In this document: positions 1,917 through 9,172 of the stretch, piece by piece
Layout of the letters: every line of letters starts with the position of its first letter
Numbering within the stretch: position 1 is the first letter of the stretch
Source: Spirochaetota bacterium
Lineage (GTDB): Bacteria; Spirochaetota; Brachyspiria; Brachyspirales; JACRPF01
Assembly (NCBI GenBank): GCA_038043445.1
Contig: JBBTBY010000004.1
Location: 1 to 36,492, forward strand
DNA: 36,492 bases
Direction: 5' to 3'
Notes under the pieces: model-generated
Seen by the model: only the letters and a program-made list of their open reading frames with translations
Told to the model about the DNA's origin: nothing
Database searches by the model: none
Made by a program: the position numbers and the translations under genes

Positions 1917-1957
1917 CAAGGCCCGCTCACTCATCCCCCGCCGCGAAATACGCGGCA

Positions 1958-1999
1958 CCCCCTTCCCTCTCTCACAGGGAAGTGAGAGAGGGAAGGGGG
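1958..1999. repeat. 18-bp perfect hairpin, left repeat of decayed element
   Basis: The arms are 1958-1975 and 1982-1999 with a six-base loop (agggaa). The core CCCTCTCTCAC/GTGAGAGAGGG is shared with the hairpins at 2236-2277, 7974-8009 and 8404-8434. It is not followed by a T-run, so it does not look like a simple terminator, although it could still act as one for the upstream gene. Confidence 0.9.
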
Positions 2000-2166
2000 A
2001 AAGAGGAGACAGGGAAATAATATGATGCAATGAGAGTCAACTGTATTGGCACGTTATTGCGATAAGAGCAGGCTTTCGCTAAGCAAGAATTTCGAAAGCA
2101 CCTTCATGACAGAATGCTTGATGATAATAAATTTATATGCAATGCTTCGATATATGGAAAACGGCA

Positions 2167-2229
2167 GACGTATTGCTTTATGCTTATTTCTACTACGCAC
2201 AACTGAAGATGTATATTAAAATTGAACTC
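2167..2229 (+). pseudogene. Remnant of DUF559 endonuclease core
   Basis: This frame reads YFYYAQLKMYIKIEL (2185-2229), which lines up with DFYCAAAKLCIEVDG of the intact DUF559 protein encoded at 8373-6802. At base level TGCTTT and ATTTCTA are shared, and a one-base gap between them suggests a frameshift. Upstream in the same frame there are several stops and only a very weak match to the N-terminal part (NESQLYWHVIAIRAGFR). The nuclease would be cut off just after the catalytic E-x-D region, where the right hairpin starts. This is inactive if the interpretation is right. Confidence 0.5.
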
Positions 2230-2235
2230 TCTTCT

Positions 2236-2297
2236 CCCCTTCCCCTCTCTCACATCCCCGTGAGAGAGGGGAAGGGGCCGGGGGATGGGGTGAGTGT
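2236..2297. repeat. 18-bp perfect hairpin plus terminal GGGGTGAGTGT, right repeat of decayed element
   Basis: The arms are 2236-2253 and 2260-2277 with loop atcccc. A G-rich linker leads to the terminal GGGGTGAGTGT at 2287-2297. The same order (hairpin, G-rich linker, GGGGTGAGTGT) occurs at both ends of the cassette at 7957-8448. Confidence 0.9.
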
Positions 2298-6801: not shown

Positions 6802-7956
6802 TCAGAACTTCACCTGCGCGCGCAGGCCGTATTCCAGTTTCAGCGGCTCGGCACCGGTGAACATCGCTATCTGCGCCGCGGAAAGGCCGTTGATGTTCCG
6901 GTCATAATAGCGGACATAGGCGGTGATATCGGTGTTCTGGAACAGGTTGTAGTGGAACATGAGCGTGTACATACCCCAGAGCTCCGGCAGATCGAGTATG
7001 CCAATCATCGATACATCGGTGAGATCGTCGAGCTTGAACATGATGCTGCCGAAGAGATAATGCTTGCCGAAGAAGGTTTTCTGCACGGAAACGAGCGCTG
7101 TCGGTGTGAGCGATGATGCAATGACGGCATCCTCATTGTAATAATACTCGAGCCGGAAGAACCATTTCTGCTCGATGGAATAATCCGCGCCCAGCATCGC
7201 CTCGACATGGCGTTTCGCAAGATAGTCGGTAAAGCGGAAAACGAATTCGCCGTAGATGCCGACCTCCACGTCGCCCTTGAAGTCGATGCCGATGGTCGTC
7301 TCGTACCCGTTGAAGTTGTACATGCCGAGCGCGGAAAGGTCCCATCCAAAAATATTGCCGAAGAGCTTGACTGCGGTCTTGATATTCGTCATCTTCGAGG
7401 AAAGCGTCGTCATCATGTCGAGCCCGGCGGTGTCACCGAAGGGCACCTTGACCCGCAGCACATCGCTTCCGTCCCGGCGGAACGAAAGATCGGCAGGGCT
7501 GACCGATGAGAACGCATCGATAGGCGAGAACATCATGCCGCGTCCGAAATTGATCACCTGCCGCCCGAACGATATGTCCGCCCAGTCGAAGAACAATGCA
7601 ACATAGAGCTTCCTCAGATCGACGGTGAGAAAGAGCTCACGCGACATGAAGGCGAACAATGTCGAGGCATTCGATATCGATGCGAACGCCGGTGCAACAC
7701 GATTGTAGAGAAGCCCCGCGGAGGCACCGTACCAGAGATTCACATCGATGCTCGCCTCAATCTTCGCCCGCTCGTCATTGGCATTGCGTATGTTGAACGT
7801 CGCGACCGCAGCGCCCGCGTACGAGAACGAATCGCCCATGCTCTGCTGTGCGATGATGTCCTGGTAGACGCGGCCGTGGAGTATGAGGCCGTCTTCCTTT
7901 TCTTTGGCGGCGGGGTAGAGGGAAAGTGAGAGAAGGAGAATAACCCCTATCGTAAC
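6802..7956 (-). other. Outer-membrane beta-barrel portion of the fused ORF (original gene lacking its own start)
   Basis: This is the pre-insertion gene. It starts with a signal-peptide hydrophobic core directly at the cassette edge (7957), with no ATG, GTG or TTG of its own. The mature part is about 365 residues, rich in alternating amphipathic strands with many aromatics (RLEYYYNED, LMFHYNLFQNTDITAYVRYYDRN). It ends LEYGLRAQVKF, with the terminal Phe typical of substrates of the Bam machinery. It lies downstream of the LolA-like gene and two LolCDE-like modules, so it may belong to that envelope system. I do not recognise a specific porin family. Confidence 0.65.
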
Positions 7957-8373
7957 ACACTCACCCCCTCTAACTCCCCCTCTCTCGCGCAAATGCGAGA
8001 GAGGGGGAGAACCGGCTAACTCTGTGCTGATCGTTTTAATTACACTTTCTATATTGTCAGAGACGTCGGCATTTGAAAATCGGATCACTTTAATTCCGCA
8101 TATCGCTATAATTTCACTACGCCTTGTATCGTATTCCTGTTGCGCTTCATGGACACCGCCGTCCACTTCAATGCATAATTTCGCCGCAGCACAATAGAAA
8201 TCGGCAACAAAGCATTTTTGCGTATCGTCCTGACAATACCGTATCACATGCTGTCGATTGAACTTACTCCCAAGTAATTGTCGATTTCTTAGCCGCTTCC
8301 ATAGTGTTTCTTCCGCATTCGTCTGACGCGCTCTCAGATCTCTTGCCAATACGGTAGATTTTCTTATCTGCAT
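6802..8373 (-). CDS. DUF559 endonuclease fused in frame to an outer-membrane beta-barrel protein
   Basis: The single open frame of 523 codons combines two unrelated genes. Residues 1-121 are a complete DUF559 (PD-(D/E)XK, Vsr-like) nuclease: NAEETLWKRLRNRQ (19-32), then FVADFYCAAAKLCIEVDGG with the likely catalytic D58 and E69/D71, H75, and GIKVIRFSN. Residues 122-139 are read through a terminal hairpin of the mobile cassette (SPPLSHLRERGG). From residue 140 a secretion signal core (VTIGVILLLSLSLYPA) starts an outer-membrane beta-barrel protein that ends in Phe. ATG 8373 has GAGG seven bases upstream. The only other start codon between the cassette edge and the signal is TTG 128 (7992), inside the hairpin and without a ribosome site. 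Whether the barrel is made as a fusion, from TTG 7992, or not at all is open. Confidence 0.8.
   Translation of the reverse strand: MQIRKSTVLARDLRARQTNAEETLWKRLRNRQLLGSKFNRQHVIRYCQDDTQKCFVADFYCAAAKLCIEVDGGVHEAQQEYDTRRSEIIAICGIKVIRFSNADVSDNIESVIKTISTELAGSPPLSHLRERGGVRGGECVTIGVILLLSLSLYPAAKEKEDGLILHGRVYQDIIAQQSMGDSFSYAGAAVATFNIRNANDERAKIEASIDVNLWYGASAGLLYNRVAPAFASISNASTLFAFMSRELFLTVDLRKLYVALFFDWADISFGRQVINFGRGMMFSPIDAFSSVSPADLSFRRDGSDVLRVKVPFGDTAGLDMMTTLSSKMTNIKTAVKLFGNIFGWDLSALGMYNFNGYETTIGIDFKGDVEVGIYGEFVFRFTDYLAKRHVEAMLGADYSIEQKWFFRLEYYYNEDAVIASSLTPTALVSVQKTFFGKHYLFGSIMFKLDDLTDVSMIGILDLPELWGMYTLMFHYNLFQNTDITAYVRYYDRNINGLSAAQIAMFTGAEPLKLEYGLRAQVKF
7957..8009. repeat. Left terminal repeat of the DUF559 cassette (edge plus 15-bp hairpin)
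   Basis: Edge ACACTCACCCCCT at 7957-7969, linker, then arms 7974-7988 and 7995-8009 with loop gcaaat. The minus-strand reading frame stays open through it, encoding SPPLSHLRERGGVRGGE. It is the 3' side of the nuclease gene. Confidence 0.9.
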
Positions 8374-8403
8374 GTCGAAACCTCAATATAACTATATGGA
8401 GAA

Positions 8404-8448
8404 CCCCCTCTCTCACATTCTGTGAGAGAGGGGGCAGGGGGTGAGTGT
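8404..8448. repeat. Right terminal repeat of the DUF559 cassette (14-bp hairpin plus edge)
   Basis: Arms 8404-8417 and 8421-8434 with loop ttc, linker CA, then GGGGGTGAGTGT at 8437-8448. It lies between the nuclease start (8373) and the stop codon of the LolA-like gene (8450-8452), so it is the 5' side of the nuclease gene and could also act as a 3' hairpin for the LolA-like transcript. Confidence 0.9.
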
Positions 8449-8449
8449 C

Positions 8450-9172
8450 TTATCTCTGCAAATACCGCACCGTGAATTCCGATTCGTTCATCGGCGTATC
8501 GAAAACAAGGTCGGTCTGCTCGAATTCCGTCTTCGTGTCCTTACGAAGCTTGTTCACCATCTCCACCTTGACAGGATATATCCTCCCGCCGATGGTCTCG
8601 ACCTTAAGCGTCCGTGATTCCTTGAGGAGTTTACCGCTCTTCGCGTACATCTCCTGTTTCCAGCCGACGAACGTCTCCTTGTCGACCCACATCTTCCGTT
8701 TCTCATACGGCACGTCCTTCACCTTCGCATCGAGCGTGAGCACATAGCAGGCGCGGCCGCCCGCGTTCTCCTCGCCGCTTATCGAGATAGCATACTTCGT
8801 CGTCAGCGTATCCGATTCGAGCGCATCTTCGTAGGAAATATCGCTTCCCATCATGCCTTCCTTGAGCATATGCCCCGATATCTTCACCGTTTCCTGATCC
8901 TCCGGGAAATATATCCACATATCTTTATTGAGCTTAAGGTATTTCGTCCCCTCATCCTCGGGGTTGGTGAATTTCACGATGGCTTTCGTTTCGCCGATGC
9001 CCTTCATGAACATCTTCTTCGTCCGTACTTCCTTGCCCTGGGTAATGCGCATCATTGCAGTGCAGGTGACCGTCTTATAGACGCGGTTGCCGTCCATACG
9101 GGCGAGTATTTCCTCGCCGGTGACGGCGTACATGGCCGCCGCCGCTGAGAACAGGATGATGATGTTTTTCAT
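8450..9172 (-). CDS. Outer membrane lipoprotein-sorting protein (LolA-like)
   Basis: The 240-residue secreted protein has a short signal peptide (MKNIIILFSAAAAMYAVTG). It matches the LolA-like family annotated as outer-membrane lipoprotein-sorting protein: repeats of beta strands with M-R-I-T-Q-G-K, KAIVKFTNPEDEGTKYLKL, DMWIYFPEDQETVKISG, MGSDISYEDAL and KMWVDKETFVGWKQEMY. These proteins form a half-barrel that carries lipid or lipoprotein across the periplasm. GGAGG lies upstream of the start. It directly follows the two permeases of an ABC exporter, which supports a transport partnership. Its stop codon is one base from the edge of the DUF559 cassette. Confidence 0.87.
   Translation of the reverse strand: MKNIIILFSAAAAMYAVTGEEILARMDGNRVYKTVTCTAMMRITQGKEVRTKKMFMKGIGETKAIVKFTNPEDEGTKYLKLNKDMWIYFPEDQETVKISGHMLKEGMMGSDISYEDALESDTLTTKYAISISGEENAGGRACYVLTLDAKVKDVPYEKRKMWVDKETFVGWKQEMYAKSGKLLKESRTLKVETIGGRIYPVKVEMVNKLRKDTKTEFEQTDLVFDTPMNESEFTVRYLQR

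Follow-up and report, generated by a model that had tools for sequence, protein, structure and literature searches.

DUF559 genes packed between intrastrand-triplex repeats in many bacterial phyla: a candidate mobile unit

The window, by which we mean the whole analysed stretch of 36,492 nucleotides from a Spirochaetota bacterium, contains two elements in which inverted ends enclose a gene of the DUF559 family or its remnants (Table 1). The ends of the better preserved element, ACACTCACCCCC (7957–7968) and GGGGGTGAGTGT (8437–8448), are inverted relative to each other. Both these ends and the perfect hairpins of 15 and 14 bp that accompany them, which had been reported in a first-pass annotation of this DNA, were confirmed at their coordinates. 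Folded as single-stranded DNA, the two ends are far more stable than shuffled sequences (z −6.7 and −6.2). A search of positions 7900–8500 against Rfam at gathering level gave no match.

Table 1. Positions of the DUF559 element, its parts and a second copy within the window.
Feature	Position	Strand	Remarks
Decayed second copy: both ends and DUF559 remnants	1926–2297	+	coding frame destroyed
Whole element: triplex-motif doublet enclosing the DUF559 gene	7957–8448	−	492 bp; third strands outermost
Left third strand ('TIR'), GAGGGGGTGAGTG on the minus strand	7958–7970	−	13-nt mirror run with own stem
Left gap between third strand and hairpin	7971–7973		TTA, 3 nt
Left hairpin	7974–8009	−	perfect, 15 bp; arms 7974–7988 and 7995–8009, loop 7989–7994
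DUF559/YcjD-family gene, predicted nuclease (PD-(D/E)XK, Vsr-like)	8011–8373	−	PF04480, E 5.8e-31
Probable ribosome-binding site TGAGG	8381–8385	−	predicted from sequence
Right hairpin	8404–8434	+	perfect, 14 bp; arms 8404–8417 and 8421–8434, loop 8418–8420
Right third strand GGGGGTGAGTGT	8437–8448	+	11-nt mirror run; gap CA at 8435–8436

The first-pass annotation described an intact DUF559 gene with its own ribosome site. The PF04480 match (107 bits against a cut-off of 20.6), the ATG at 8373 on the minus strand and a GAGG upstream of it bear this out, but the reading frame has no stop inside the element. It crosses the left repeat, where it acquires the tail SPPLSHLRERGGVRGGE, and extends into a downstream porin-like ORF to position 6802, giving 523 amino acids in total. 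The repeat-encoded tail begins SPPLSHLRERGG... and has counterparts beginning SSPLPLSHFPVREGKG... in other copies. At many loci elsewhere, DUF559 frames likewise often read through the repeat into tails such as SPLPLSHFPVREGKG or PPLTPPIKGGE; a tail of this kind in a predicted protein may point to a translated triplex repeat.

Among 20 DUF559 sequences, residues E21, D58, E69, D71 and H75 are invariant. An AlphaFold2 model of the window protein (pLDDT 87) has its best PDB match in 3hrl, a gonococcal member of the family, followed by the catalytic domain of the homing endonuclease I-Bth0305I (3r3p). YcjD itself was predicted to be a Vsr-related PD-(D/E)XK protein in 2005 (PMC1189080), and DUF559 is accordingly treated here as a predicted nuclease.

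Judged by its sequence, what had been described as a terminal inverted repeat backed by a hairpin is one structure, the intrastrand-triplex motif of the BoxC/PIT/TM repeats. Both parts are present, yet they are not separate features because the terminal repeat is the mirror image of the purine arm of the hairpin: on the G-rich strand, the arm GAGAGAGGGGGAG is followed by the gap TTA and the third strand GAGGGGGTGAGTG. Catalogues of repeats of this kind, reportedly treated as intrastrand-triplex repeats by Hoyne in 2000, cover hundreds of bacterial genomes, that of E. coli K-12 among them, and the repeats are linked to genome instability. They have been known for 25–30 years, and we know of no mobility gene that the literature ties to them. 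BoxC of E. coli, and later PIT and TM, consist of a pyrimidine arm, a loop, a purine arm, a short gap and a mirroring G-rich third strand (PMC4666352). Triplex formation in solution was demonstrated for the E. coli sequence; Holder et al. did not see a stable triplex in vivo, and their 2015 search for remnants of transposases or integrases at TM sites found none (PMC4666352). The window ends may likewise be able to form a triplex.

Further copies were sought in the 5.1-Mb host genome. A pattern of third strand plus stem, ACTCACCCN{2,28}CCTCTCTC, matches 47 ends, the reversed control pattern none. PF04480 has six matches, all of which lie between triplex ends, the right end of the copy on contig C142 being partly beyond the contig. 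At unrelated loci, gene-bearing doublets coexist with internally deleted elements, gene-less doublets and many single ends. The internally deleted forms retain either the start of the DUF559 gene alone (C40:14533-14958) or its end alone (on C3); gene-less doublets occur on C74 and at C3:29890. Repeat ends at the inspected host loci lie mostly between genes, with a few inside ORFs, and stems are mostly 13–19 bp long (7–11 at most other loci). Third strands match their own stems over a mean of 13.5 nt, against 10.4 with swapped stems (p 0.0005). The decayed copy in the window, which sits directly after a gene ending at 1916, can be aligned by blastn with the element on C66 over its left end and gene start (83%, 129 nt), within the gene (80%, 60 nt) and over its right end (92%, 66 nt). 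With dS at least 0.45, the copies are not of recent origin; the enzyme has been under purifying selection, as dN/dS is 0.13–0.15 in the two closest pairs. The host genome contains no match to PF01797 (Y1_Tnp), the Y1 (HUH) transposase family. With six loci, the fold match and no Y1 match, the earlier description of a REP/MITE-like multicopy unit that carries a Vsr-like PD-(D/E)XK nuclease in place of a Y1/HUH protein holds.

The association is not peculiar to this genome. From a scan of GTDB genomes we took 80 DUF559 loci, chosen by protein similarity with their flanks ignored, from Spirochaetota, Pseudomonadota, Thermodesulfobacteriota, Nitrospirota, Chloroflexota, Planctomycetota, Melainabacteria and others. 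A perfect triplex motif is present in 88 of 160 flank windows (55%) and in 15 of 1425 control windows from the same contigs (1%); 56 of the 80 loci have at least one such motif and 32 have it on both sides. Hairpins with a perfect stem of 8 bp or more are found in 78% of the flanks against 12% of control windows; for left–right inverted repeats of at least 12 bp the figures are 57% and 1.7%. Of 161 pyrimidine/purine hairpins, 107 carry a perfect third strand where 0.4 would be expected, with a gap of 3 nt in 84 of the 107. Where the arms are not mirror-symmetric, the third strand obeys the mirror rule in 71 cases and the direct-repeat rule in none (both in 19, neither in 39); the triplex rule thus fits and an alternative duplex does not. 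A reading of the third strand as a duplex switch by direct repetition was rejected on this 71:0 result. Hairpin orientation was dropped as evidence of direction, since the palindrome reads pyrimidine–purine on both strands.

DUF559 genes are thus specifically packed between triplex motifs in many phyla. Most of the 80 sampled members are hairpin-flanked, and the hairpin-flanked DUF559 proteins do not form a single clade, the point for which a tree had been proposed. Within Spirochaetota, DUF559 is patchy (72 of 296 genomes, up to 11 copies). The strict motif pattern occurs in 14 of the 296 genomes, 13 of them with DUF559; Fisher's test against the overall 72 of 296 gives 5e-8, an optimistic value because one family contributes eight of the 14 genomes and, in some genomes, the pattern hits include those beside DUF559 itself. 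In a sample of the host order, the motif of this lineage was found solely in the two genomes bearing DUF559. Viral contigs scanned with the window protein yielded no relatives. The open-access literature searched (preprints and subscription papers lay outside the search) does not link DUF559 or YcjD to triplex repeats. The suggestion of a new element type needs qualifying: the repeat class (BoxC/PIT/TM, PMC4666352) has already been described, as has the protein family, so that the new part is the link between nuclease and repeat, which appears not to have been reported.

Further repeats were seen at these loci. Three Desulfobacterales copies (L101, L104 and L106) have a common AT-rich palindrome, TTTTAAA..TCGAATTCGA..TTTAAAA, in the upstream flank. 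The ends of L005 and L003, as well as L033 and L037, have other small palindromic repeats (for example GGCATCCNTGCC-like, with 'ATCC' in the loop) inserted in the loops of the triplex hairpins, which thus seem to be the target of a second family of repeats.

Comparisons of occupied and unoccupied loci support the view that DUF559 units insert. Most units are intergenic, but two lie in frame inside hsdM at different sites (L055 and L065), each of these hsdM genes having a short insert where the other gene holds its unit; others lie inside pglX-like genes. Protein-level queries made of the joined flanks matched uninterrupted homologues: over 1000 plasmid records in the case of hsdM, and 39 in that of pglX, covered at least 80% of the query in one place. 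In the related genome G001, the two genes that neighbour the element in the window are present without it; about 200 bp of other sequence take its place, so the comparison of orthologous loci proposed earlier revealed absence of the cassette but no exact empty site. As a separate observation, DUF559 units that lie in frame in hsdM and pglX, which encode restriction and BREX methyltransferases, or interrupt these genes recur in several unrelated genomes (L055, L065, L061, L053 and L076). The unrelated stretch of about 200 bp in G001 (L199, about 2210–2430) is itself an inverted-repeat unit, bounded by GAACAATCCTTCTTCGCACTGCG and CGCAGTGCGAAGAAGAATTGTTC.

DNA comparison of the copies on Synechocystis and Sinorhizobium plasmids revealed no empty allele. 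The E. coli member of the family is ycjD, which has BoxC-motif copies downstream. It is present in 3363 of 5426 E. coli genomes and lies between sapF and fabI in every record inspected. Strains without ycjD have an efflux operon at this site, and E. coli for that reason yields no clean pair of insertion and empty site; this picture is consistent with PMC12817139. Movement of a DUF559 element was not seen in the sequences compared. The first-pass annotation had listed as counting against its proposal a lack of further copies, hairpins unassociated with DUF559 elsewhere, and the cassette at all orthologous loci of distant relatives. We found instead 47 ends in the host genome, hairpins flanking DUF559 across phyla and, in G001, the locus without the cassette.

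The arrangement of the motifs varies. The six loci of the host genome follow one plan, with the gene inside a doublet (one of them at a contig edge). In the 80-locus sample, 20 loci are flanked by a single motif left and right, the third strand in each facing the gene, and at 16 a clear motif is missing. Where two motifs lie on one side, the inner third strand points toward the gene and the outer one away from it in 14 of 21 cases ('io'), and such doublets with third strands outermost resemble REPINs. Because of this variation the motifs are not ordinary, classical transposon ends, and it is the main structural weakness of a mobile-unit model. The type of repeat appears to follow the nuclease tree across phyla. 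The DUF559 tree is built on 105 columns and poorly resolved; on it, the CCTCTCCC repeat type takes 13 changes, compared with 26.9 for shuffled labels, and none of 500 shuffles was as low. The nearest relative from another phylum has the same repeat type in 70% of cases, a share that falls to 53% on shuffling of labels within classes (p 0.001); between classes the test is borderline (p 0.054).

In the reading that we favour, with a probability of about 0.6, this element represents the BoxC/PIT/TM repeats in their gene-bearing form; its DUF559 nuclease would cut beside the motif, and repair would then spread the unit. It builds on the structure of the ends, their specific linkage to the gene, the dispersal, the series of decaying copies and the selection on the gene, all of which were observed; cleavage by DUF559 and mobilisation of the repeats we infer. 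When single-stranded, at a replication fork or during repair, the motif would fold into a hairpin or triplex. The nuclease would recognise the folded motif, or its duplex sequence, and cut beside it, and host repair would copy or paste the motif into the break with or without the gene. In this way the nuclease would propagate the gene that encodes it and, acting in trans, copies without a gene. Insertion through repair, and not of the DDE type, agrees with the absence of clear target duplications: the hallmark of IS elements and MITEs moved by DDE transposases, a target-site duplication at both ends, is absent from the eight elements compared, whose flanks never match over more than 2 bp. DUF559 is the best candidate for spreading the triplex repeats, as a homing-endonuclease-like nuclease whose cuts would lead to copying of the repeat. 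A bolder proposal, to which we give slightly less than even odds, is that of a distinct class of prokaryotic mobile elements present in many phyla, in which a Vsr-like PD-(D/E)XK gene is combined with triplex-forming ends, the folded three-stranded end is the recognition signal and the BoxC/PIT/TM repeats are the product.

The repeats may, conversely, have come first, moving or arising by other means, with DUF559 as a homing-type selfish gene that targets them. The homing-endonuclease-like fold would suit this, as would the varying arrangement, with the gene inside or between doublets, and the existence of E. coli strains without ycjD; insertion sequences are known to target REPs (PMC1525189). 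We regard it as unlikely, given that nearly all genomes with the motif (13 of 14) also carry DUF559, that the repeat type tracks the DUF559 tree, and that some gene-less copies derive from gene-bearing ones by internal deletion, as would be expected of a gene-bearing parent form. Less probable still is a host function, in which DUF559 would act in repair or defence as a structure-specific nuclease, retained beside the repeats or regulated by them, and would not move them. Membership of the Vsr-like superfamily, a weak match in PADLOC (E 5e-9) to a methyl-directed type II restriction enzyme, the several copies in hsdM and pglX genes and the single conserved position of ycjD in the inspected E. 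coli records all point in that direction. A multicopy, patchy distribution with broken copies does not, nor do the neighbours, which are unrelated among the loci inspected.

Mobilisation of the repeats by another transposase (Y1/RAYT or TIRYT), with DUF559 as a passenger, is strongly disfavoured. The tag GGGGTGAG does fit the TIRYT end motif GGGGWSAS (PMC3733652), but the host genome has no Y1_Tnp match, and in motif-bearing Spirochaetota genomes only one of 27 Y1-transposase loci has the motif, compared with 14 of 25 Spirochaetota DUF559 loci. That the motifs are mostly intergenic hairpins could suggest chance, or GC-rich terminators beside an unrelated gene. This reading has a negligible probability and is refuted by the excess of hairpins in the flanks (with motifs in 1% of control windows), the excess of third strands over the 0.4 expected and the 71:0 result for the mirror rule; terminator activity of these repeats was, moreover, not found in earlier work cited in PMC4666352.

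Among known systems, the closest are the BoxC/PIT/TM repeats themselves, which have in common with the ends described here the order arm, loop, arm, gap and mirrored third strand, a dispersed intergenic location and, in some cases, an arrangement as inverted doublets; the copies next to ycjD in E. coli are examples of this motif. What differs is the nuclease gene between the repeats across phyla. As the literature ties no mobility gene to them, DUF559 is a testable candidate for their spreader, and the cross-phylum link offers a testable answer, for instance through E. coli ycjD, to the question of their origin and partner enzyme. If the nuclease does read the folded end, triplex-forming DNA would be the mark of the element and a repair-type nuclease would replace the transposase; if mobilisation by the nuclease is demonstrated, this would be a new element class. 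TIRtrons (PMC3733652) have an end motif that matches GGGGTGAG, but their enzymes, the TIRYTs, are HUH transposases, and the Y1 loci tested here (one of 27 with it) are without the triplex motif. The homing endonuclease I-Bth0305I, of the EDxHD or Vsr-like type, has the closest functionally described fold and is a small, possibly selfish nuclease; DUF559, by contrast, was not seen in an intron or intein, has palindromic ends of its own and is multicopy and mostly intergenic. With REP/BIME/REPIN sequences and their RAYT (the REPtron), the unit has in common a short tag next to a palindrome, occurrence both singly and as inverted doublets, a repeat that flanks one small nuclease gene but is found more often without it, and no visible target duplication, and RAYTs too are thought to spread their repeats. 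The enzyme is a Vsr-like PD-(D/E)XK protein and not a Y1/HUH TnpA_REP, so its route would do without HUH chemistry, and the tag is a mirrored third strand and not GTAG. The DUF559 unit thus works like REP/RAYT and is not a member of that group, whose defining HUH enzyme is missing.
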